From the IMG/VR virus record IMGVR_UViG_3300024344_000004, positions 1 to 64,000 of that record: 64,000 bases of DNA. One strand, given 5' to 3'. This DNA is from a virus. The position numbers and the translations under genes were made by a program. Positions within the stretch are counted from its first letter, which is position 1; every line of letters starts with the position of its first letter. Below the pieces are notes generated by a model that was not told where the DNA came from, did no database searches, and saw only the letters and a list, made by a program, of their open reading frames with translations. Below are positions 14,497 to 49,740 of the stretch, in pieces.

Positions 14497-17400
14497 TTAT
14501 GGTGACCATGAAGGCCAAGCACGTAAAGCACCGCCTACTGTAGCAGTTAAATATCCATTAGGTACACCTACGGTTGCCATGTCATACATTTCTACAGGTG
14601 CTCCAGATGGGAAATATGTTATAGGACCTCCACCAACGTCTGTTAGTGCTGAACCACCTGCACCTGCGTGTGAAATAGTAGTACCTCCACCACCACCGCC
14701 ACCGGTTGCTCCTGTAGTTCCTTGATTACCTTGATTTCCAGTAGTTCCTGTACTTCCCTGAGTTCCTGTATTACCTGTAGTTCCTTGATTACCAGTACCT
14801 GTAGTTCCTTGTCTGCCTTGAACACCCTGACGTCCTTGTGTACCTTGACGACCTTGTGTGCCTTGTTCTCCAGTAGTTCCTTGGTTACCGGTATTACCTG
14901 TATTACCTGTATTACCAGTATCTCCCTTTTCTCCTTGAATACCTTGACGTCCTTGTACACCCTGACGACCTTGTTCACCTTGACGACCTTGTGTGCCTTG
15001 TTCTCCGTCAGTACCTTGTTCACCGGTAGTTCCTTGAGTACCACCACCACCACCGCCACCAGAATTACCTTGTCTTCCTTGTATTCCTTGTTCCCCATCA
15101 GTACCTTGATTTCCAGTACCAGTAGTTCCTTGATTACCGATTGTACCTTGGTTACCTGTATTACCTGTAGTTCCTGTATTTCCTGTATCTCCCTTTTCTC
15201 CTTGCCTACCTTGTACACCCTGACGACCTTGTTCGCCTTGACGACCTTGTGTACCTTGTTCTCCAATAGTTCCTTGTCTACCCTGAGAACCTTGAGTACC
15301 ACCACCACCGCCACCACCAGCAGTACCTTGTGTACCTTGGTTACCAGCTTGTACAAATGTTATAACACAATCATCACCATTACTAAAATAACTACTATTA
15401 GCTACATATTGAACTTGAACTTCTTCATAAGCAGTGGAACCACCACCACCTGCTACATTTGCACCCGTAATATTAAATGTAACCCATGTAGTAGAATCAT
15501 CTGTTTTAAATATTCTTAAATGACCTCTCACTGCACCTGTTCCATCATCTAATGAATCGTTCCAAGCACTAACATCTACAGAGTTAATATCTAAATCTGA
15601 AATACCTACTTTACTTATTAAACCATAATTAGGAACACCACCACCACCGGGTACCGCAAGGTTAAATCCAAAGTTAGTTGCACCGGGTGAACCAGCACTA
15701 ATATCAAAACTACTATAATTAAATTCTATACTATTACCACCAAACAATCCATCAGTACCTTGTGAACCTGTGTTACCTTGTCTACCTTGAACACCCTGAC
15801 GTCCTTGTGTACCTTGTCGACCTTGTGTGCCTTGTTCTCCAGTAGTTCCTTGGTTTCCAGTACCACCATCAGAACCATCAGTACCTTGATTACCTGTAGT
15901 ACCAACATTTCCTTGTCTACCTTGAACACCTTGACGACCTTGTTCTCCTTGTCTTCCTTGTGCACCTTGTTCACCATCAGTACCTTGGTTTCCAGTACCA
16001 CCATCAGAACCATCAGTACCTTGATTACCTGTAGTACCAACATTTCCTTGTCTACCTTGAATACCCTGACGTCCTTGTGTACCTTGTTCACCATCAGTAC
16101 CTTGTTCTCCATCAGTACCTTGATTACCTGTATTACCTGTGTTACCAGTATCTCCTTTTTCTCCTTGAATACCTTGACGTCCTTGTTCACCTTGACGTCC
16201 TTGTATACCTTGTTCACCATCAGTACCTTGTTCTCCATCCGTACCTTGATTACCAATTGTACCAGTAGTTCCTTGATTACCAGTTGTACCAGTAGTTCCT
16301 TGAGTACCAGTTGTACCTTGGTTACCTACACCTCCAGTATCACCAGTATCTCCCTTTTCTCCTTGAATACCTTGACGTCCTTGTTCACCTTGACGTCCTT
16401 GTTCTCCTTGTATACCTTGTTCTCCGTCAGTACCTTGTTCACCGGTAGTTCCTTGACTACCACCACCACCACCGCCACCAGCATTACCTTGTCTTCCTTG
16501 TATTCCTTGTTCCCCATCAGTACCTTGATTTCCAGTACCAGTAGTTCCTTGATTACCGATTGTCCCATCAGTACCTTGTTCACCTATAGTTCCTTGATTA
16601 CCAATTGTACCAACATCTCCTTGACGTCCCTGTACACCTTGACGACCTTGTTCTCCTTGTCTTCCTTGTTCACCATCAGTACCTTGTTCTCCATCAGTAC
16701 CTTGATTACCAATTGTACCAACATCTCCTTGACGTCCCTGTATACCCTGACGTCCTTGTTCACCTTGTCTTCCTTGTATACCTTGTTCTCCGTCAGTACC
16801 TTGTTCACCATCAGTACCTTGTTCTCCATCCGTACCTTGATTACCAATTGTACCAGTAGTTCCTTGATTACCAGTTGTACCAGTAGTTCCTTGATTACCA
16901 GCTTGTACAAATGTTATAACGCAATCATCACCATTACTAAAGGTACCATTATTATCAACAAACTGTACTTGTACTTCTTCGTATGCTGTGACTCCTGTAC
17001 CTCCAGCTACATTTGAACCTGTAATATTAAATGTAATAAATACTGTAGAATCATCTGTTTTAAATATTCTTAAATGTCCGCGGGGAGAGCCTGAACCATC
17101 ATCTAATGAATCATTCCAATCTGAAACATCCGTACCATTAATATCAAAATCAGATATACCAACTTTAGTTGTTGAACTGTAACTTGGTATTCCTCCTCCT
17201 CCGGGTACTGGTATATTAAAACCAAAATTAGTTTGACCCGGAGAACCAGCACTAATGTCAAAACTACTATAATTAAATTCTATACTGTTTCCACCAAATA
17301 ATCCTGTAGTTCCCTGTATACCCTGACGTCCTTGTTCACCTTGTCTTCCTTGTATACCCTGACGTCCTTGTTCACCTTGTCTTCCTTGTATACCTTGTTC

Positions 17401-17811
17401 TCCGTCAGTACCTTGTTCACCTATAGTTCCTTGATTACCAATTGTACCAACATCTCCTTGACGTCCCTGTACACCTTGACGACCTTGTTCTCCTTGTCTT
17501 CCTTGTTCACCATCAGTACCTTGTTCTCCATCAGTACCTTGATTACCAATTGTACCAACATCTCCTTGACGTCCCTGTATACCCTGACGTCCTTGTTCAC
17601 CTTGTCTTCCTTGTATACCTTGTTCTCCGTCAGTACCTTGTTCACCTGTAGTTCCTTGATTACCAGTAGAACCTTGTGCACCGGTTCCTCCAGTACCTTG
17701 TCTACCTTGTGTACCTTGTGTTCCCTGAGTAATAGATTCTATTTCTTGAATCCTCTTTTTTCCCACTGCATTGTGGGGTAAACTGTTTAGTACTCTACGG
17801 TAAGACGGCAT
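14497..17811 (-). CDS. Collagen-like fibre protein with two beta domains
   Basis: An 1104-residue protein. After a short basic N-terminus it is mostly uninterrupted Gly-X-Y triplets such as NQGTTGEQGTDGEQGIQGRQG, so a collagen-like triple helix is expected. Unlike animal collagen there is virtually no proline; Gln, Thr, Glu and Arg fill X/Y. Two near-identical beta domains of about 130 residues interrupt it (residues about 180-310 and 700-830), each beginning LFGGNSIEFNYSSFDISAG. Poly-Gly hinges and a C-terminal knob (about 1040-1104) follow. It lies downstream of MCP after a hairpin, so it should be made in lower amounts. It is likely a head or neck fibre. Confidence 0.9.
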   Translation of the reverse strand: MPSYRRVLNSLPHNAVGKKRIQEIESITQGTQGTQGRQGTGGTGAQGSTGNQGTTGEQGTDGEQGIQGRQGEQGRQGIQGRQGDVGTIGNQGTDGEQGTDGEQGRQGEQGRQGVQGRQGDVGTIGNQGTIGEQGTDGEQGIQGRQGEQGRQGIQGRQGEQGRQGIQGTTGLFGGNSIEFNYSSFDISAGSPGQTNFGFNIPVPGGGGIPSYSSTTKVGISDFDINGTDVSDWNDSLDDGSGSPRGHLRIFKTDDSTVFITFNITGSNVAGGTGVTAYEEVQVQFVDNNGTFSNGDDCVITFVQAGNQGTTGTTGNQGTTGTIGNQGTDGEQGTDGEQGTDGEQGIQGRQGEQGRQGIQGRQGDVGTIGNQGTDGEQGTDGEQGRQGEQGRQGVQGRQGDVGTIGNQGTIGEQGTDGTIGNQGTTGTGNQGTDGEQGIQGRQGNAGGGGGGGSQGTTGEQGTDGEQGIQGEQGRQGEQGRQGIQGEKGDTGDTGGVGNQGTTGTQGTTGTTGNQGTTGTIGNQGTDGEQGTDGEQGIQGRQGEQGRQGIQGEKGDTGNTGNTGNQGTDGEQGTDGEQGTQGRQGIQGRQGNVGTTGNQGTDGSDGGTGNQGTDGEQGAQGRQGEQGRQGVQGRQGNVGTTGNQGTDGSDGGTGNQGTTGEQGTQGRQGTQGRQGVQGRQGNTGSQGTDGLFGGNSIEFNYSSFDISAGSPGATNFGFNLAVPGGGGVPNYGLISKVGISDLDINSVDVSAWNDSLDDGTGAVRGHLRIFKTDDSTTWVTFNITGANVAGGGGSTAYEEVQVQYVANSSYFSNGDDCVITFVQAGNQGTQGTAGGGGGGGTQGSQGRQGTIGEQGTQGRQGEQGRQGVQGRQGEKGDTGNTGTTGNTGNQGTIGNQGTTGTGNQGTDGEQGIQGRQGNSGGGGGGGTQGTTGEQGTDGEQGTQGRQGEQGRQGVQGRQGIQGEKGDTGNTGNTGNTGNQGTTGEQGTQGRQGTQGRQGVQGRQGTTGTGNQGTTGNTGTQGSTGTTGNQGNQGTTGATGGGGGGGTTISHAGAGGSALTDVGGGPITYFPSGAPVEMYDMATVGVPNGYLTATVGGALRAWPSWSP
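14690..17720 (-). repeat. Collagen-coding tandem repeats with duplicated blocks
   Basis: The DNA consists of 9-nt and 18-nt units coding Gly-X-Y, with larger copied blocks. For example, 16605-16680 and 17442-17515 are almost identical. The two beta-domain coding segments (about 15340-15740 and 16900-17300) are also copies. The pattern implies recurrent unequal recombination and likely length variation between related genomes. Frames on both strands stay open because of the triplet periodicity. Confidence 0.85.
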
Positions 17812-37631: not shown

Positions 37632-37744
37632 TGAACTGCGTAGATTGTGGTGAATACAGTTGGACTGATAATGGTGGACATGAAATAAATAAATCATGTT
37701 GTGAACACTGTTTAGTAAATGATTATATAACAGGTGAACTATGA
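37631..37744 (+). CDS. Zinc-ribbon mini-protein (37 aa)
   Basis: MNCVDCGEYSWTDNGGHEIN... with CVDC and CCEHC. ATG overlaps the preceding stop and its own stop overlaps the AAA ATPase ATG. Confidence 0.65.
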   Translation: MNCVDCGEYSWTDNGGHEINKSCCEHCLVNDYITGEL

Positions 37745-38919
37745 GTAGAAGAGAAGGAAGACCATCACCAACTGAGTCAGCTACTGAGTTCCCTCTACAC
37801 TATGAACGTGTAGGCGGAGACGGTAGATATTGGCACGTAAGTGAAGACAAGCGTGGAGTAAGAAGATGGAAGAAGGGATTATATCATGGTTCAGATGAGG
37901 ATAAACTTCTCAGTTCAACAACCGAAACGCTTATAAAGGATGATATATCTGGAGATACAATGGAAGACAAAACCGACCACAGAGGACTCGACAGTCTATT
38001 CGACCGAGACAGTCCCATGCCAGCAGAGGAACCTACCCCCGAAGAAGTGGTAGAAGTAGAGAAAGACACAGTGATGTCTAAACTAAGAGGGTCAGTCAAT
38101 GTGCCCGAAGAGTTTAAATTCGCTGATGACATGACATTCTATACTATGTTGAGAAACATATTTAGAGGTAAGAACATTCTTATCACAGGTCCCTCAGGAT
38201 GTGGTAAGTCAAGTCTCGGTAAGATATTAGCTGATATCACTGCAAAAGACTTTTATAGTTTTAACTTCGGTGACACTATGAATCCCTCAGCTAAGTTATT
38301 GGGTGACACTAAGTATGATAAAGAAGCCGGAACATGGTTCAAACCATCTCGGTTCGTCAATGCAATACAAGGTGATTCATTCATTATGTTAGATGAGGTA
38401 ACACGTGACCGAACAGGTGACTTAGCTAACATTCTCATGCCGGTATTAGATGGTCAAAAGTATTTAGCTCTCGATGAGAGTGAAGATAGTGATACTGTCT
38501 CAGTTAGTAAAGGTGCGTTCTTTTACGCTACTGCTAACATAGGTAGAGAGTATCTCGGTGCATCTCATGATTTAGACCGAGCATGGAAAGATAGATTCAC
38601 AGGTGGTATATATGAATTAGAATACTTACCACCACAGAAAGAGAAAGAACTGATACAGAACAGAAACCCTCAGCTTACAGACTACGATGCTGATAAGATT
38701 GTAGACTTTGCTAAGAGAGTGCGTGACTTACATTCTTCAGACGAACTCAATACTGCTGTTTCAACACGTATGTGTTTAGCATCAGCTGAGTTAGTTGTTG
38801 ATGGGATGCCTTTAGTCGATGCACTGAAACACACCTGTTTACCGTTCTACCCTGTTCAGGGTGGTGACGATACTGAGAGAGTTCGTATTATACAAGTTAT
38901 TCAATCAATGGGTGAATAG
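37741..38919 (+). CDS. MoxR/CobS-type AAA+ ATPase
   Basis: 392 residues. After a 130-residue acidic N-terminal extension the AAA core shows Walker A (ITGPSGCGKSSLGK, about 148), Walker B (FIMLDEVTRD), sensor 1 (FYATANIG) and an Arg-finger region (LDRAWKDRF). The layout matches MoxR/CobS-like unfoldases that act with VWA-domain partners, and such a partner lies two genes downstream. Role may be metal insertion or remodelling of a replication or virion complex. An internal TATA box would give a form lacking 73 residues. Confidence 0.85.
   Translation: MSRREGRPSPTESATEFPLHYERVGGDGRYWHVSEDKRGVRRWKKGLYHGSDEDKLLSSTTETLIKDDISGDTMEDKTDHRGLDSLFDRDSPMPAEEPTPEEVVEVEKDTVMSKLRGSVNVPEEFKFADDMTFYTMLRNIFRGKNILITGPSGCGKSSLGKILADITAKDFYSFNFGDTMNPSAKLLGDTKYDKEAGTWFKPSRFVNAIQGDSFIMLDEVTRDRTGDLANILMPVLDGQKYLALDESEDSDTVSVSKGAFFYATANIGREYLGASHDLDRAWKDRFTGGIYELEYLPPQKEKELIQNRNPQLTDYDADKIVDFAKRVRDLHSSDELNTAVSTRMCLASAELVVDGMPLVDALKHTCLPFYPVQGGDDTERVRIIQVIQSMGE
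37930..37937 (+). promoter_or_regulatory. Internal TATA box in AAA ATPase gene
   Basis: CTTATAAAGG lies 30 nt before the in-frame ATG 37960 (MEDKTDHRGLDSLFDRD). The spacing equals that of other leaderless genes here. Confidence 0.45.
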
Positions 38920-39306
38920 ATGGTTAAGAAGAAAGTATTACGTAGAAAGCACACATATTGGCATCAGTTGGCTAAGTTCCTTATACTGAATGGTTACAAA
39001 CCAACAATGATAGGAAAGATAATCAAGGATGTATTTCCCGAGACTGAGGTCAATGGTAGACACGTAGGTGCATACAAACGTAGATTGATACAAGATGAGG
39101 ATATTCTCATCCCAAACAAACCAACTATGAATATCAATGAAGTAAGAGAAATAGCTGAAGGCTTAGTTACTAACGAAGATATGTTTATATATAAATGTGT
39201 TATCGGTTCAGCTAAGAGAAGTCTTAAGTGCTTCGAGTATAAGTTCCGTAGTGAGGATAAAGATTTAGTAAGTGAGGTAGATAAATGGATTATGGCGATT
39301 CAATAG
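38920..39306 (+). CDS. Hypothetical basic protein (128 aa)
   Basis: MVKKKVLRRKHTYWHQLAKF..., with a helix-turn-helix-like stretch (LNGYKPTMIGKIIKDVFPETEV) and a basic surface. It lies between the AAA ATPase and the VWA protein, overlapping the latter by 22 nt, so it probably belongs to the same complex. DNA binding inferred. Confidence 0.65.
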   Translation: MVKKKVLRRKHTYWHQLAKFLILNGYKPTMIGKIIKDVFPETEVNGRHVGAYKRRLIQDEDILIPNKPTMNINEVREIAEGLVTNEDMFIYKCVIGSAKRSLKCFEYKFRSEDKDLVSEVDKWIMAIQ

Positions 39307-41399
39307 ATGAATGGACTGAGGACAGTGAAAATGATTTCTGTTATGCGTGTGACGATTGGACTGATGCCGACGGTCATGGCAACTGTAAAGATTGTGGCAA
39401 CAGTTACACTACAGTAGACCCATTCGTCAGTCCGACTATAGCAAAGACATACAGTTCACCCGCACCTACTGTCTCAGCACATGGTGACCTTTGGAATAGG
39501 GGTTCGGGTTTCACATGGGGTGGTAGTTCATATTGGTCCGGTGGTGGAGCTACATCATGGGGTGGTTGGTCTCAGTCTACAAACGACAGTGCTCGTATGC
39601 TTAAACATAAAAGACATTTAGATTCTCTTTGTAAAGTAGTAGACCCAACTGTAAAGCATTCATTACATTTCGCAACTGAGTCGAAGAACTATTCGAACAT
39701 GTCTAATGGAACTATATATGTAGATGGGACTCTCATTGAACACGATGATGACAAACTCGACATATTAGCTGGTCTCTCAATACATGAGAAGTTACACTTA
39801 GTTCATACTCAACCATTAACTAAATGGGAACGTGAGTATAGTCACCAAAACAATCTTAGTTCAGCACAGGAAAGATTACTACATAACATATGTAATATCA
39901 TAGAAGATGAATATATAGAATCTCAGTTAGCTAAGACTCATGCCGGATACACTATGTATATTGAGAAGGTTAAACAACACTTCTTTGGTAAGCATGGTCA
40001 CAAGATAGATGAGTTCAACGGTAATCCTATCGCTGACATAATGAATACATTGTTAGCTATGGTAAGATATCCACAATCTATCTCAGCTGACCGTAGAAAG
40101 AAACACGCTAAGCATATTCAGTTCTTTGCCCGTGCGTTAACAGATGCATTAACTGATAGACATTCAACCTTTATGGCTATGGATAGTATTTATTGTTATA
40201 TGAATCAACTCGCTAAAGAAGAAGCAGAGAAGCATGAAGGCACCGACGAAGAAGAAATACTACGACGTGCTGATGACAGGCTCAAAGACCTTTTAGGTGA
40301 GTGGGGTGAATCAGTTGGTGAAGAAATGTCAGCTGAAGACATGGAACGTATCAAAGATAGACTTATAGAAAAAGAACGTGACGAAGCTGAACGTGGTGAT
40401 AGATATGACCGTAAAGAGAAATTGTCTCGAGCTTTGGATAAGTTCGCAAAAGAACTCGCTGATTATGGTTTAGATAGAGACACTATTTCAGATGCACTCG
40501 GTAGAGATATAGATGAGTTAGCTGACAGTGACTATACTGAAGAGAAGTGGGATGTGTCCCGTGCTCTCGGTTTGAAACAAGGTGGTAAAGTTACATGGCG
40601 TAATCAAAGAGCCTCTTCAGACTATGATAAGAGTAAATACACTGAGGCTGAAAGAAATATGAAATCAGCAATTGGTCAACTAAAGAGAAAGATACAACTA
40701 TATGGTGACACACGTATTAACACCATTCGTAACCAACGAAGAGGTAAGTTAGATAAACGTATGCTACATAAGATACCTCTCGGTCGACCCGACTTATTCA
40801 AGAATGTAATTATTGACGAAGACAAGCCACTCGATGTATGTCTCTTAGTCGATGAGTCAGGTAGTATGGGTTCATGGAAGATGGCTAAAGCACGTGAGAC
40901 TGCGATTGCTTTACGTGAATCACTCAAAGATAATCAAGCTCTCAACTTATGGGTGTTTGGTCACACAGCTGACGGTTATGAATGGGATGGTAAAGGTGAC
41001 ACTAATATGTCAGTATATTGGTCACCTACATATAAATCAGATATAAAGGCTATGGGTGCTATGACAGCACGTAGTGAAAACAGAGATGGTATGGCTATTC
41101 TCGCATCAGCTGAAAGAGTCAAAGCTGAGTCACCATCAATGGGTAGCAATAAACTTATGATTGTTATCTCAGACGGTGAACCATCAGCAGACAAATACAG
41201 ATTCCCAATCAGTGTGCCACATACTAAGAAGTGTGTCAGACACATTGAGGGACAGGGATGGAATGTAATTCAAATAGGCATCTCAGGTGCACGTGAATAT
41301 ATTATGAAAGATATGTTTACTAATTACATCCTGTGTGATGATACAGCTGACTTACCAACTAAGGTAAGTAAAGTAATTAGAAGGGTGATAAAAGTATGA
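39285..41399 (+). CDS. VWA-domain protein with zinc ribbon and HExxH motif
   Basis: 704 residues. The N-terminus has a CxxC...CxxC zinc ribbon (C19, C22, C34, C37), then a Gly/Ser/Trp-rich linker. A putative metallopeptidase core follows, with HEKLH at 167-171 and a downstream acidic helix (NIIEDEYIE) that could supply the third ligand. A charged coiled-coil region (300-440) follows. The C-terminal VWA domain has a complete MIDAS DxSGS (VCLLVDESGSMGS), a Thr region and VISDGEPS. With the upstream AAA ATPase it resembles MoxR-VWA chaperone pairs. Confidence 0.8.
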   Translation: MDYGDSIDEWTEDSENDFCYACDDWTDADGHGNCKDCGNSYTTVDPFVSPTIAKTYSSPAPTVSAHGDLWNRGSGFTWGGSSYWSGGGATSWGGWSQSTNDSARMLKHKRHLDSLCKVVDPTVKHSLHFATESKNYSNMSNGTIYVDGTLIEHDDDKLDILAGLSIHEKLHLVHTQPLTKWEREYSHQNNLSSAQERLLHNICNIIEDEYIESQLAKTHAGYTMYIEKVKQHFFGKHGHKIDEFNGNPIADIMNTLLAMVRYPQSISADRRKKHAKHIQFFARALTDALTDRHSTFMAMDSIYCYMNQLAKEEAEKHEGTDEEEILRRADDRLKDLLGEWGESVGEEMSAEDMERIKDRLIEKERDEAERGDRYDRKEKLSRALDKFAKELADYGLDRDTISDALGRDIDELADSDYTEEKWDVSRALGLKQGGKVTWRNQRASSDYDKSKYTEAERNMKSAIGQLKRKIQLYGDTRINTIRNQRRGKLDKRMLHKIPLGRPDLFKNVIIDEDKPLDVCLLVDESGSMGSWKMAKARETAIALRESLKDNQALNLWVFGHTADGYEWDGKGDTNMSVYWSPTYKSDIKAMGAMTARSENRDGMAILASAERVKAESPSMGSNKLMIVISDGEPSADKYRFPISVPHTKKCVRHIEGQGWNVIQIGISGAREYIMKDMFTNYILCDDTADLPTKVSKVIRRVIKV

Positions 41400-43201: not shown

Positions 43202-43304
43202 TCTCTAAAGGGGAGATATAATAGAGCATGGTTTATAGAGCATGATTAATTAAGCAATTAAGTAGCTCTATACTTACCTCAATATTTGCTCAGTGAGGCC
43301 CATT

Positions 43305-43808
43305 ATGGGAAGAAAGGATACAGGAAAGAATTTCGAAAACGAAATAAGAAGAAGCTTGAAAAGCAGTCGCCACATATGGTGGTTTAGAATACAAGATACC
43401 AATGACATTAACAGATTCGTCAAAGTCGCAGTCGCTGAGAAGCAACCCGCCGATTTCTTTACAGTCTACAGAAGTAGACCAATTATGCTTGAGGCTAAAA
43501 CTTCTCGGAATCTTACTTCTTTTCCTTTACATTATGGTAATACCCCTGCTATCGCTAAGCATCAGATAAGAGAGGGAGCTAAGTTGGAGAGAGCTGGTGG
43601 ACTAAGTTTTATCTTGATAAGAAGAGAAGAATACAGAAACAAAAAGACATATGCAATTACACCATCACAGGCTAAGTATTTATACAGTAAGTCTTTCAAA
43701 AGAAAGTCAGTTAAATGGAGCTGGTTTGATGAACACGCATACATTGTCGAAAGATTAAAAGCACCCTTGAGGTGGAATTTACAAAAACTATATGAAGAAG
43801 CAATATGA
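43305..43808 (+). CDS. Holliday-junction-resolvase-like PD-(D/E)XK nuclease
   Basis: 167 residues from ATG 43305; GTG 43293 is a possible longer start, but GTGAGG 6 nt upstream favours the ATG. It opens GRKDTGKNFENEIRRSL (catalytic Glu), then QPADFFTVYRSRPIMLEAKTS with D and E-x-K as in RecU/Hjc-like nucleases. A basic C-terminus follows. It would resolve recombination or replication junctions before packaging. Confidence 0.75.
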   Translation: MGRKDTGKNFENEIRRSLKSSRHIWWFRIQDTNDINRFVKVAVAEKQPADFFTVYRSRPIMLEAKTSRNLTSFPLHYGNTPAIAKHQIREGAKLERAGGLSFILIRREEYRNKKTYAITPSQAKYLYSKSFKRKSVKWSWFDEHAYIVERLKAPLRWNLQKLYEEAI

Positions 43809-43942
43809 AGAAAAGAGCAACTAAAATACCCTACGAAGGATATACTCTACCCCCATCAGCTGAGAAGGGTGGTATGTTTGTAGACTTCAATAAGATTATA
43901 CAGAGAAAACCTGTTAAAAAAGTAAGGATAAAAAAGAAATGA
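43805..43942 (+). CDS. Basic mini-protein (45 aa)
   Basis: MKKRATKIPYEGYTLPPSAE..., Lys/Arg-rich end. Overlaps the nuclease stop and the next ATG; unknown role. Confidence 0.55.
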   Translation: MKKRATKIPYEGYTLPPSAEKGGMFVDFNKIIQRKPVKKVRIKKK

Positions 43943-44538
43943 AAGACATAATGAAAGAATACAGCACAACATTCTACGAATGTTTAGATGCGTGGCCAGA
44001 TGATATCAAAGAAGATATATACAAACTATATGCATACCTCAGAGTGTGTGATGAGATGGTCGAAGGTGAGAAGACACTACATGACTTCAAGAATTGGAGA
44101 GATGTTATAGAACAGTTCTATGAAGTTAGTGATAAGTATCAGTTCGATGGTCAATGGTTAGCTGACTTCCACGTCAGTATGTATCAAGATATGGTAAAGA
44201 AAGAACACACAATTGTATCTATGTTAGATTACTGTAAAGGTTCAGCTGAATCAGTTGGTATGATGATGTCTAAGATATTAGGATGTAACCCACGTTGTGA
44301 GATACACGCAAGGGCTCTCGGCAGAGCTTATCAGATTATTAACTTCATAAGAGATTATGATGAGGATGTAGCCAATGGTTATCATTACATCACTGATAAC
44401 TTCAGTGCATACTTAGAGATATTTTATCAAGACATAGATAATGGTATGGATGGTTTAAATTATATTCCAGAAGAGTTACAAGAGCCTATCATAATGGCTA
44501 CTAAAAAATATATGGAAGTAGCGGGTGAATTCAACTAA
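43939..44538 (+). CDS. Squalene/phytoene synthase family protein
   Basis: 199 residues, shorter than cellular enzymes (about 280-300). Recognisable family motifs in order: STTFYECLDAWPDDIKEDIY, first Asp-rich motif in YAYLRVCDEMVEG (DExxE instead of DDxxD), YCKGSAESVGMMMSKILG, and second Asp-rich motif in QIINFIRDYDEDVANGYHYI with D139 and D143 retained. These would bind two prenyl diphosphates through Mg2+. The product could be phytoene (towards carotenoids and retinal) or a related C30/C40 chain. It lies in a plus-strand operon with ATGA overlaps, so it is not a stray insertion. Confidence 0.85.
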   Translation: MKDIMKEYSTTFYECLDAWPDDIKEDIYKLYAYLRVCDEMVEGEKTLHDFKNWRDVIEQFYEVSDKYQFDGQWLADFHVSMYQDMVKKEHTIVSMLDYCKGSAESVGMMMSKILGCNPRCEIHARALGRAYQIINFIRDYDEDVANGYHYITDNFSAYLEIFYQDIDNGMDGLNYIPEELQEPIIMATKKYMEVAGEFN

Positions 44539-44785
44539 ACCGCCATATTACAAAGCTCTGTGGCACAACTGCAACATCTGTAGGATACATTATATGAGTG
44601 AAGAACCTCATTTGAGAGCTTATCTTTGTAATGAGTGTTGGAATAAGACACCTCAGTTTGTTGTGAAAACACCTAAAAAAGAAATAAAAAAGAAAAACGA
44701 TATAAATATGAAGACAATAATATTATATACTATAGGTAATCTATTATGTTTAGGGGTAATCGCATATTATTTGTGGTTTAATTAA
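44525..44785 (+). CDS. Zinc-ribbon protein with C-terminal TM helix (86 aa)
   Basis: GTG start overlapping the previous gene. CNIC and CNEC pairs in the first half, a Lys-rich linker, then TIILYTIGNLLCLGVIAYYL as a membrane anchor. It follows the prenyl-synthase-like gene directly; a membrane partner is conceivable but unproved. Confidence 0.65.
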   Translation: MNSTKPPYYKALWHNCNICRIHYMSEEPHLRAYLCNECWNKTPQFVVKTPKKEIKKKNDINMKTIILYTIGNLLCLGVIAYYLWFN

Positions 44786-48003: not shown

Positions 48004-49472
48004 AAAAATATGAAATATACGATTTGCTAAGATATTTTCACAATGCAAAGAAAAAAGACGGAACACTTTTCCCTATACTAGGAGAGGATTCGTTAGCTCT
48101 AACTACAAGTCTATCTTACTTGTTAGAAGATACTAACTTCTGTATTAAAGCATACAGTGGAACAGGTAAGACTGTATTGATGGAAGCTGTGGCAAACCTA
48201 CTTCCAGAGGAGTATGTCTACTCAGTAGAACATATGTCAGAGACAGCAATATGGTATGATGAGGATAAAATCAACAAAGCTAGATTTGTTTTTATTCCAG
48301 AAGCACAAAAGATACCAGAGGGTGTCATGGAAATCATTAAAACATGGGCAGACGGGCGAACAGCCCAACGTAAAAAGACAGATGTTACTATCAAGATGGC
48401 AGTAACACAGTGGTTAAAACCTAAATATGTTTTGATGGCAGTAGCAGTAGAGAATGATAAAGGTTCAGCTATGTTTGATGCTGAGTTAGAACGTAGATGT
48501 ATGATTATGCATACAAACCCTACAGTCAAACAGACAGAAAGAGTTATCAAACATAAACTTTTACATTCAGCTTCACCAAAAGCCTCTATGTCTTCAATGT
48601 CAGATAAAGAAATAAAAGATTTAAAGAAACACATACTAACTACATTGAGAGAAAGAGACGAAGATGATGCGACTGTATTAAAGAATCCATGCGCCCCATT
48701 TCTATTTGACGCAATACCATCAGCATTCCCTGTATCACGGTCGAAGGTTCAGTATCTATTGAAGTTGATTAATGCTATAGCAAGGTTTTATCCAGATGAG
48801 ATAGTTAAAGTCAAACAAGATGGTATACAATATGGACTAGTATCACCTAAACATAACTGGCTCGGACTGAGAATATATCTTAACTCATTTGTAGAAGAAT
48901 GCTTACATATGCCAAGTCATGGAACAGACATACTTAAACTATTTCCCGAAACTAGATTAGATAGGTTTGGTTTTGCAGATAGTGAGACAGTTAAGATGTC
49001 AGAGAATGAATTGAAAAAGGCTGCTAAATCAGCTGGTCTACCATTTACCAAATTAAGACCAGTTATAGCAGGTTTAATGATGACAGGGTTCTTAGAGTGT
49101 GATGAAGAAGGAAGTAAAAAACTTTACTATAAGAGCCCACTCATTACAGAACCAGTATCAAAAATAAATTGGAGTGATTTAATTGAAGAAACGAAAGAGT
49201 TTATACGAAAAGAGTGGCCTAAAGTATCTGATGAATACATTGGGCGCAGTTGTAGCAGTATCAGGATTGTTGACCCGTTTAGTGGGGACAACATTGAACT
49301 GGGTGCGAGAGCAGAGACAGCGGTAGAAGTTGACACTGGTGATTATCCGTCAGTGTTCAAGTCTTCTAGTGACGCTAAGATTAAAGACTACGAGTCTTTT
49401 CTACTAAATGCAGAGGGAGATTACAATGACGAAGAAGACAAAGCAGTCAGAGAATACTTTCAGAAGAAGTAG
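48000..49472 (+). CDS. AAA+ ATPase, putative replicative helicase
   Basis: 490 residues. Walker A (IKAYSGTGKTVL, about 55), a degenerate Walker B with Glu (RFVFIPEAQKIPEG), sensor 1 near YVLMAVAVEN and an Arg-finger helix (FDAELERRCMI). The C-terminus has a winged-helix-like segment (SENELKKAAKSAGLPFTKLR, MMTGFLECDE). The layout is MCM-like, but the Walker B acid pair is altered. Context (SSB-like gene, PolB, primase) supports a helicase. Confidence 0.7.
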   Translation: MKKYEIYDLLRYFHNAKKKDGTLFPILGEDSLALTTSLSYLLEDTNFCIKAYSGTGKTVLMEAVANLLPEEYVYSVEHMSETAIWYDEDKINKARFVFIPEAQKIPEGVMEIIKTWADGRTAQRKKTDVTIKMAVTQWLKPKYVLMAVAVENDKGSAMFDAELERRCMIMHTNPTVKQTERVIKHKLLHSASPKASMSSMSDKEIKDLKKHILTTLRERDEDDATVLKNPCAPFLFDAIPSAFPVSRSKVQYLLKLINAIARFYPDEIVKVKQDGIQYGLVSPKHNWLGLRIYLNSFVEECLHMPSHGTDILKLFPETRLDRFGFADSETVKMSENELKKAAKSAGLPFTKLRPVIAGLMMTGFLECDEEGSKKLYYKSPLITEPVSKINWSDLIEETKEFIRKEWPKVSDEYIGRSCSSIRIVDPFSGDNIELGARAETAVEVDTGDYPSVFKSSSDAKIKDYESFLLNAEGDYNDEEDKAVREYFQKK

Positions 49473-49740
49473 ACTTCCTAAGCGAGATGAGATGTTTGCA
49501 GTAGTCATAGAGATGTCAGGGGGTTCTAGAATGAGAGCCCTCTGTGCAGACAGTAAAACCCGCATGATTAGAATCGGTGGTAAACTGAAGAAAAGAATGT
49601 GGTGTAGAGAGAATGATTTAATTATAGTTAAGCCTTGGGTTATACAGAGTGACCAAAAGGCAGACTTAGTTTATAGGTATCTCCCTACTGAGAGAAAGAA
49701 TATAAGTAAAAAAATACCAGAGGAGTTAAACATATGGTGA
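49426..49740 (+). CDS. Archaeal translation initiation factor aIF1A
   Basis: 104 residues from ATG 49426, chosen for the GGGAG site 7 nt upstream and the normal aIF1A length; it overlaps the helicase by 47 nt. The whole S1/OB-type core is readable: RLPKRDEMFAVVIEMSGGSR, MRALCADSKTRMIRIGGKLK, KRMWCRENDLIIVKPWVIQ and ADLVYRYLP. It should bind the ribosomal A site and help start-codon choice. The N-tail is basic. Its C-terminal tail differs from cellular forms. Lying inside the replication operon, it is not a contaminating host gene. Confidence 0.9.
   Translation: MTKKTKQSENTFRRSRLPKRDEMFAVVIEMSGGSRMRALCADSKTRMIRIGGKLKKRMWCRENDLIIVKPWVIQSDQKADLVYRYLPTERKNISKKIPEELNIW

Follow-up and report, generated by a model that had tools for sequence, protein, structure and literature searches.

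A compact, virus-borne branch of the squalene/phytoene synthase superfamily

The synthase-like gene and its viral neighbourhood

The stretch of DNA analysed here (the window; 64,000 nucleotides, positions 1 to 64,000 of the IMG/VR record IMGVR_UViG_3300024344_000004) belongs to a tailed virus, with genes for a tape measure, a major head protein, a portal and a large terminase on the minus strand. The plus strand is the replication side and encodes a CobS-like AAA protein, a VWA protein, a pyrimidine-dimer glycosylase, RecU, the synthase-like gene that is the subject of this study and an 86-residue ORF, together with Hsp20, an IF1A-type factor, MazG, a family B polymerase, a glycosyltransferase and a B12-type ribonucleotide reductase. 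The synthase-like gene occupies 43939-44538 (+), an uninterrupted frame at exactly these coordinates, which starts with ATG and encodes 199 residues at a GC content of 35.5% (vs 38.0% for the window). Its upstream neighbour is a RecU-like Holliday junction resolvase (43293..43808, +; PF03838, 44.2 bits) with homologues at 16 of 24 related loci, while the 86-residue ORF (44525..44785, +) overlaps its end by 14 bases. Further downstream, the IF1A-type translation initiation factor (49408-49740, +; PF01176) has homologues at 15 of the 24 loci. On the far side of RecU, the CobS/NorQ-like AAA ATPase precedes a VWA protein whose similarity to CobT is weak and below the cut-off (37741-41399, +); the pair resembles MoxR-VWA or cobaltochelatase modules, and a cobalamin role appears doubtful. 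Among the structural genes, a 1104-residue protein (14497-17811, −) contains eight stretches of collagen triple-helix repeats (291.5 bits) and is perhaps a tail or fibre protein.

The original prediction, made from the letters of the window, had described a phytoene/squalene-synthase-like gene in a virus, and this assignment is borne out by the profile and the fold, which agree, and by the terminase, portal, major head and tape-measure genes of the record. The profile search that it had proposed matched the protein to the Pfam family SQS_PSY (PF00494) with 83.2 bits against a cut-off of 26 (E = 3.3e-23), the only SQS_PSY match in the whole 69,348-base virus record. The alignment joins residues 6-151 of the viral protein to positions 2-172 of the 263 in the model, the last third of which finds no match. 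As a control for chance, a profile built from cellular homologues only gave the viral protein 165.1 bits, compared with 13.1 bits for the best of 2000 residue shuffles, and a chance ORF or spurious motif is ruled out by the Pfam score and this control. Cellular contamination is likewise ruled out, since the gene sits among virus replication genes and occupies the same place in relatives. The 199-residue form and the central GSAESVGMMMSKILG segment, both pointed out beforehand, are found in the 43939-44538 ORF.

Below the level of the superfamily, the viral protein scored far under every NCBIfam equivalog cut-off listed for it, which would count against a function as a phytoene synthase. Its best score was to HpnD (TIGR03465; 48.9 bits, cut-off 278.6), followed by HpnC (TIGR03464; 48.2 bits, cut-off 250.45), and the three CrtB models NF042419, NF045921 and NF045686 gave 34.4, 34.1 and 30.8 bits against cut-offs of 480, 500 and 550. 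The haloarchaeal copy from Natrialba also falls below the three CrtB cut-offs (95.7-136.7 bits), and these sub-cut-off matches of the viral protein are to members of the squalene/phytoene synthase superfamily. A profile search of the PDB sequences returned nine distinct sequences (best E 2.8e-13), consisting only of CrtM-type chains, one entry named phytoene synthase, and HpnC, and none of the PHROG families matched the viral protein at E 0.01. The viral enzyme should not be filed under CrtB, CrtM, HpnC or HpnD.

Active-site residues and predicted fold

Conservation was assessed by comparing 25 compact viral rows with 88 distinct cellular SQS_PSY ORFs, some of them partial, of which 76 came from Poseidoniales-order genomes and 12 from plasmids. 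Both Asp-rich motifs had been predicted, and this stands for the second of them. In its region, QIINFIRDYDED (Q132-D143; 44332..44367, +), the canonical D139-Y-D-E-D143 is present, all 25 compact rows follow the pattern QxxNxxRDxxxD, and Q132, N135, R138, D139 and D143 are invariant. The first motif, D38-E-M-V-E42 (44050..44064, +), departs from the prediction in that it reads DxxxE and not DxxxD in 25/25 compact rows, whereas the column of E42 holds Asp in all 70 ungapped cellular rows (18 more are gapped there). Another replacement lies in the segment GYHYI (44377..44391, +), where Tyr takes the place of the Arg of GRxYxP. This Arg, which we treated as defining, occurs in 88/88 cellular rows and 0/25 compact viral rows, position 148 being Tyr in 24 of the latter and Phe in one; position 152 is T, G, S or N in the compact rows vs Pro in 87 of the 88 cellular ones. 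The central helix YCKGSAESVG (Y98-G107; 44230..44259, +) carries two viral-specific residues, namely K100, in a column that is Tyr in 72/88 cellular rows, and E104, which is found in all 25 compact rows where the cellular rows have Ser (46 of 88) or Gly (34). Tyr191 (44509..44511, +), which aligns with CrtM Tyr248, is Tyr in 25/25 compact rows and 45/88 cellular rows. The residues kept in the compact rows include Y31, R35, D38, D84, Y98, G107, Q132, N135, R138, D139, D143 and Y150, and the alignment shows that the predicted core Mg/diphosphate residues (D38, D139, D143, Q132, N135, R35, R138, Y98, Y31 and Y191) are retained. The CrtM residue numbers used for these comparisons are in part those of PMC13304436 and of PDB titles, the title of 3vjd in the case of Tyr248.

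The viral protein is also shortened internally and at its end. In the viral rows the two Asp motifs are 100-104 residues apart, whereas the cellular rows have a median spacing of 155 and none below 111; the stretch that separates the second motif from the column of Y191 measures 52 vs 75-80 residues. Because the protein stops at the residue aligned with CrtM 256, the C-terminal region past the Tyr248 helix is missing and CrtM Arg265 has no counterpart; according to PMC13304436, simulations of CrtM identify Arg265 as one of three Arg that hold the diphosphate. The change from DxxxD to DxxxE, the replacement of the GRxYxP Arg by Tyr and the loss of the Arg265 region, all at otherwise invariant sites, would argue against the phytoene-type reading that we favour below.

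The structure prediction that had likewise been called for was obtained with AlphaFold2 from the 25-row alignment (pLDDT 86.4, pTM 0.84; this replaced a 9-row model with pLDDT 63) and gave a CrtM-like fold. The top Foldseek matches were CrtM-type enzymes (best E 4.6e-6), next HpnC, then further CrtM entries and then YisP. VIA-align placed all 199 residues of the model over CrtM 11-256 (3vjd; Z 21.8, rmsd 2.6), followed by HpnC and YisP (Z 19.9 each), the carbazole prenyltransferases CqsB4 (18.0) and LvqB4 (17.5) and human squalene synthase (~17), with the best polyprenyl synthase (14.4) below CrtM, HpnC, YisP and squalene synthase. The model accordingly has the class-I all-helical prenyl synthase fold and is closest to CrtM and squalene synthase, and a library of viral structures held no match to it at E 0.001 or better. 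To judge from its residues and fold, the protein would work like a class-I prenyl synthase. The predicted fold alone does not fix the reaction, because the phosphatase YisP and the carbazole prenyltransferases are among its neighbours.

These neighbours and the altered residues bear on a serious rival reading, though one that we think less likely than not, in which the chemistry has changed, so that one prenyl diphosphate would be bound and phytoene would no longer be made. The protein could then hydrolyse GGPP or FPP to the alcohol, halt once the cyclopropyl diphosphate has formed, or pass the prenyl group on to a different acceptor, which would starve or remodel lipid or carotenoid synthesis in the host. 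Such a change would fit the virus-wide Y/F148, E42, E104 and K100, themselves conserved in the compact family, the lost C-terminal region with its diphosphate-holding Arg265 (PMC13304436), and the presence among the nearest folds of both carbazole prenyltransferases and YisP (179 residues, rmsd 1.9), which according to PMC10148934 is a phosphatase of farnesyl diphosphate. However, Y98, Q132 and N135, implicated in condensation or Mg binding, are retained, as are the two Asp motifs if the conservative Glu is allowed for, and CrtM outranks YisP in the fold comparison. The existence of a deeper viral branch with DxxxD and a longer C-terminus (see below) further implies that some of the changes may be late and may amount to tuning.

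Distribution, selection and origin of the compact form

Scans of IMG/VR, which used the protein, the alignment, single relatives and a back-translated motif as queries, recovered the compact form in at least 24 further contigs (55-93% identity to the window protein), and further scans added at least three relatives of the deeper branch, counts that are lower bounds as the scans rest on exact short patterns. Single-protein scans with two of the relatives (L017 and L019) as queries found no additional relatives. The deeper branch consists of three contigs (L208 2740-3402, L212 7001-7660 and L213 2626-3300) whose products of 220-225 residues retain a canonical DNIVD motif and a basic C-terminus. 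The L208 copy (41% identity) was found by a polymerase-based scan, L212 and L213 were then found with it as query, and it gave 116.1 bits to PF00494 as the member of the relatives that was scanned with Pfam. In another variation, the product of L011 and L012 (8001-8684), two of the 24 compact relatives, has 228 residues and a Cys-rich CxC...CxC C-terminal tail, and a segment similar to this tail opens a separate downstream gene in L018 and L161, which suggests that a small metal-binding module was either fused to the enzyme or split from it.

Polymerase matches define 22 loci, 10 of which, with polymerases 83-100% identical, extend to the RecU homologue, while the remaining 12 begin downstream of the gene site. 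All 10 contigs that reach the site carry the gene, L208 with its divergent copy and the other nine with a compact one, and it therefore looks fixed, not sporadic, in the virus lineage of the window. Five contigs (L011, L012, L018, L161 and L162) combine an enzyme 58-69% identical to that of the window with a polymerase of just 23-25% identity and with different neighbouring genes; the simplest reading of these sequences would be that virus lineages far apart have exchanged the enzyme gene. In L012, L161 and L162 the ribonucleotide reductase is also well kept (67-68%), and the enzyme is thus not the sole such gene. The median dN/dS of 0.18, calculated from the 154 pairs out of 300 whose dS exceeded 0 but stayed under 1.5 (other pairs excluded), shows that the synthase-like gene is under purifying selection. 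We conclude that the gene is real and maintained by selection, and that it represents a compact branch of the squalene/phytoene synthase superfamily carried by viruses. In a separate collection of phages, the sole matches were crtM-like and fell in two unannotated 'Staphylococcus phage' records, OR844999.1 and OR849911.1, where they are likely host DNA in the deposited records.

Selection also bears on the proposal that the protein is a pseudoenzyme, i.e., a non-catalytic binder that regulates host prenyl synthases or replaces one of their subunits. The loss of an otherwise invariant Arg and the shortened protein would suit this proposal, and the small Cys-rich membrane-type ORF that overlaps the gene in many relatives could be a partner, yet core Mg/diphosphate residues kept in 25/25 rows and a low dN/dS are unexpected without catalysis, and we regard a purely non-catalytic role as very improbable.

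The overlapping 86-residue ORF itself has an N-terminus with Cys pairs, zinc-ribbon-like by eye, and one hydrophobic C-terminal segment, and it matched no Pfam family. At 17 of the 24 related loci there are homologues, which have two Cys pairs and, at the C-terminus, a hydrophobic segment. Across 19 loci including the window, the overlap with the enzyme end is 8-26 bases in 11, a gap of 103 bases precedes the ORF in one, and in seven the enzyme is followed by a different ORF; in L208, the synthase-like gene comes after, not before, the zinc-ribbon/TM ORF. As described in PMC13304436, phytoene synthases keep an amphipathic Helix-13 in their C-terminal part, for which the viral protein is too short, and it is possible that the product of the 86-residue ORF acts as a membrane tether for the enzyme in trans. 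We infer this functional link from the sequences. Two loci speak against it, namely L017, where the enzyme is away from an ORF of this type and adjoins a gene homologous to MazG of the window, and L016, which has no homologue of the ORF in the available sequence.

In order to place the viral branch among cellular enzymes, Poseidoniales genomes were picked out by a 16S pattern, and 318 genomes of the order were searched with the viral profile. Two or more SQS_PSY genes were present in 11 of 13 genomes searched for this family, and the remaining two, from other Thermoplasmata, had none. The viral profile matched 192 of the 318 Poseidoniales-order genomes with a best score of 51.7 bits, and the compact viral form was absent among these matches. 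Trees of 55 and 63 rows were built with 40 of the 88 cellular rows and, in the second, 23 of the 28 virus rows, near-identical rows being omitted. The virus rows formed one clade with support of 100/100 in both trees, on a stem of 2.7 changes per column that fell to 1.88 after the deeper branch was added, and the neighbours of this clade were haloarchaeal and Streptomyces rows, a placement with weak support of 82/71 in the first tree and 90/79 in the second. Several rows including the virus clade are on long branches, and joins between such rows carry a warning from the tool.

A tree with the crtB of MGII had been suggested, and its outcome is mixed: the viral clade is not nested in the sampled MGII copies, while AU tests allow kinship with the three Poseidoniales CrtB rows, a rarer type (p 0.14). 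The same tests did not reject union with the three haloarchaeal rows alone (p 0.10) and rejected union with 12 copies of the second Poseidoniales type (p 0.0001), which is HpnD-like and CrtI-adjacent in several genomes. They covered the second-type, CrtB-type and haloarchaeal unions, and the N-extended HpnD-like and HpnC-like types were placed in the tree only. Recent capture from the presumed host is rejected for the 12 sampled second-type copies by this p value, and it finds no support in the 318 genomes, where the best match is 51.7 bits. The origin would thus be old, and the AU tests are compatible with a source in either haloarchaeal or Poseidoniales CrtB kinship. The CrtI-adjacent Poseidoniales type, which adjoins CrtI in five genomes (G002, G004, G006, G010 and G011), is here taken to be a phytoene synthase. 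In one further Poseidoniales-order genome (G302, contig C36, locus L118), a 764-residue frame combines the CrtI family (residues 3-488) with an SQS_PSY domain (~502-750), in an apparent natural fusion of phytoene desaturase and SQS_PSY domain.

Host, candidate products and known systems

The host of the virus is probably archaeal, and the sequences make a Poseidoniales host plausible. The virus IF1A is 46-51% identical to its counterparts in eight Poseidoniales-order genomes (69.2-77.6 bits; a ninth gave no match), 48 and 52% identical to those of two other Thermoplasmata (94.2 and 92.5 bits, the top of 12 genomes) and 38% identical to that of a nanoarchaeon (70.7 bits). By these scores the gene appears to indicate an affinity to Thermoplasmatota which, if anything, lies outside the Poseidoniales rows. 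The virus also carries CobS/CobT-like genes, as do magroviruses, for which CobS and CobT are reported as AMGs (PMC10160649). A search of the 318 Poseidoniales genomes with the virus terminase, a query with no positive control, gave 0 matches at E 1e-10, and the B12-type ribonucleotide reductase had a full-length match in only 1 of 12 genomes, at 30% identity.

If the host is a member of the Poseidoniales, a downstream carotenoid pathway would be available, because the CrtI family is above cut-off in 88 of 115 Poseidoniales genomes and rhodopsin is present in 75; these presumed hosts already carry a synthase of their own. High transcription of proteorhodopsin in Poseidoniales and transcription of crtI/crtD in Thalassarchaeaceae are reported in PMC9723583. 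Among the 25 virus records, which may be fragments, none has a CrtI-type (PF01593) or GGPP synthase (PF00348) gene, with 14/14 control genomes positive, and the absence of these genes, many of the records possibly being fragments, counts against the phytoene reading. Rhodopsin was also found in 0/25 records, with 0 controls positive there, by the same model that matched the 75 Poseidoniales genomes. A virus-encoded carotenoid pathway finds no support, as no desaturase or prenyl synthase partner occurs in the 25 records, and support of retinal or rhodopsin synthesis by the virus is possible, with no gene for it found in the virus.

Our best explanation, which we judge about evenly poised between right and wrong, is that the gene encodes an active, miniaturised class-I prenyl-diphosphate enzyme (Mg2+-dependent and all-helical) that uses host GGPP, is most likely of phytoene type and serves marine tailed viruses as an AMG. 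The enzyme would draw GGPP, the archaeal lipid precursor, from the host and condense it pairwise, head to head. The resulting prephytoene diphosphate or phytoene could be taken into carotenoids by CrtI and later enzymes of the host; alternatively, the product might remain an apolar membrane isoprenoid. The virus would provide the entry step alone. Phytoene is plausible as a product on the basis of the residues, and by analogy with known enzymes its formation from GGPP is the single most likely outcome.

The choice of substrate rests on the position aligned with CrtM Phe26, which is L, V or M in 25/25 compact viral rows and T in the deeper branch. Since GGPP use and phytoene formation are reported for CrtM with F26A, F26S or F26L (PMC13304436), a residue other than Phe would favour a C20 over a C15 substrate. 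The rule may not hold widely, because Phe occupies this column in 47/88 cellular rows, mostly Poseidoniales paralogues that include the one type taken as phytoene synthase; the Staphylococcus copy also has Phe. In two of the three haloarchaeal records examined, a carotenoid gene adjoins the synthase copy.

The same position weighs on a C30 alternative, by which FPP would be converted to presqualene diphosphate or dehydrosqualene and give rise to squalene-type apolar membrane lipids and not carotenoids. The nearest solved relatives are mostly C30 CrtM enzymes, the top NCBIfam score of the viral protein is to HpnD, far under the cut-off as it is, and Poseidoniales genomes contain tandem HpnD-like/HpnC-like pairs, all of which would accord with such an activity. 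Against this, archaea make GGPP for their lipids, and no member of the compact family has Phe at the Phe26 position, in contrast to the Staphylococcus copy. The ranking of CrtM may mirror the absence of a solved CrtB structure noted in PMC13304436, and PDB 5iys has the molecule name phytoene synthase and the title dehydrosqualene synthase. We consider the C30 alternative improbable.

A more far-reaching version of altered chemistry, which we offer tentatively and think rather unlikely, is that viruses have evolved a branch of ~200 residues with a rebuilt active site (DxxxE, Tyr148, Glu104 and Lys100) that performs a reaction on GGPP other than phytoene or squalene formation, possibly with the overlapping-ORF zinc-ribbon membrane protein as partner. 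If true, this branch would redirect the membrane or pigment synthesis of infected marine archaea.

Under the phytoene-type reading as well, the gene would sit at a branch point, as prenyl diphosphates feed both archaeal membranes and carotenoids, and would offer a handle on possible viral steering of lipid and pigment metabolism in abundant marine archaea. Such steering is hard to study in Poseidoniales because their viruses are known from metagenomes alone, and Magrovirales are likewise known only through metagenomes (PMC12999244). The gene can be expressed in laboratory E. coli with neither virus nor host, and as a natural minimal enzyme of 199 residues, with an intact catalytic core and altered residues at otherwise invariant positions, it makes the roles of these positions directly testable. 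The compact single-gene form was not found in the literature on phytoene synthase or squalene with Poseidoniales, marine or archaeal viruses, or AMGs, a scope outside which key Poseidoniales-virus studies lie. A magrovirus survey (PMC10160649) gives an AMG category 'metabolism of terpenoids and polyketides' with the gene unnamed in its main text, and its supplement may already have noticed this gene.

Virus-borne phytoene synthase is already known from giant viruses of eukaryotes (PMC6792449). According to that source, cPacV-1605, the second case after the ChoanoViruses, encodes phytoene synthase, desaturase, lycopene cyclase, a retinal-forming enzyme and rhodopsin, i.e., a full cassette, whereas a single gene is present here. 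Among cellular enzymes, the closest rows in the tree are the haloarchaeal and Streptomyces CrtB-like proteins (90/79), with the best E-value, among 40 of 69 plasmid matches listed, in Natrialba magadii (2e-13, 24% identity), with which the RGSA segment is shared. Unlike the viral protein, the haloarchaeal and Streptomyces rows are longer and keep DxxxD and the Arg ahead of xYxP (DRIYLP in Natrialba). The HpnD-like, HpnC-like and CrtB-like paralogues of Poseidoniales share the superfamily with the viral protein. YisP of Bacillus subtilis is a short member of the same fold with 16% identity to the viral protein (rmsd 1.9 over 179 residues), but is an FPP phosphatase, whereas the viral protein gives no sign of being one. 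The fullest comparison is with CrtM of Staphylococcus aureus (PDB 2zco, 3vjd), whose fold is shared over all 199 viral residues and whose second Asp motif and Tyr129, Gln165, Asn168, Arg45, Arg171 and Tyr248 have equivalents in the viral protein. The latter is 47 residues shorter inside the span aligned to CrtM 11-256, lacks the region past 256 with Arg265, and has Glu for Asp52, Tyr for Arg181 and Leu, Val or Met for Phe26.
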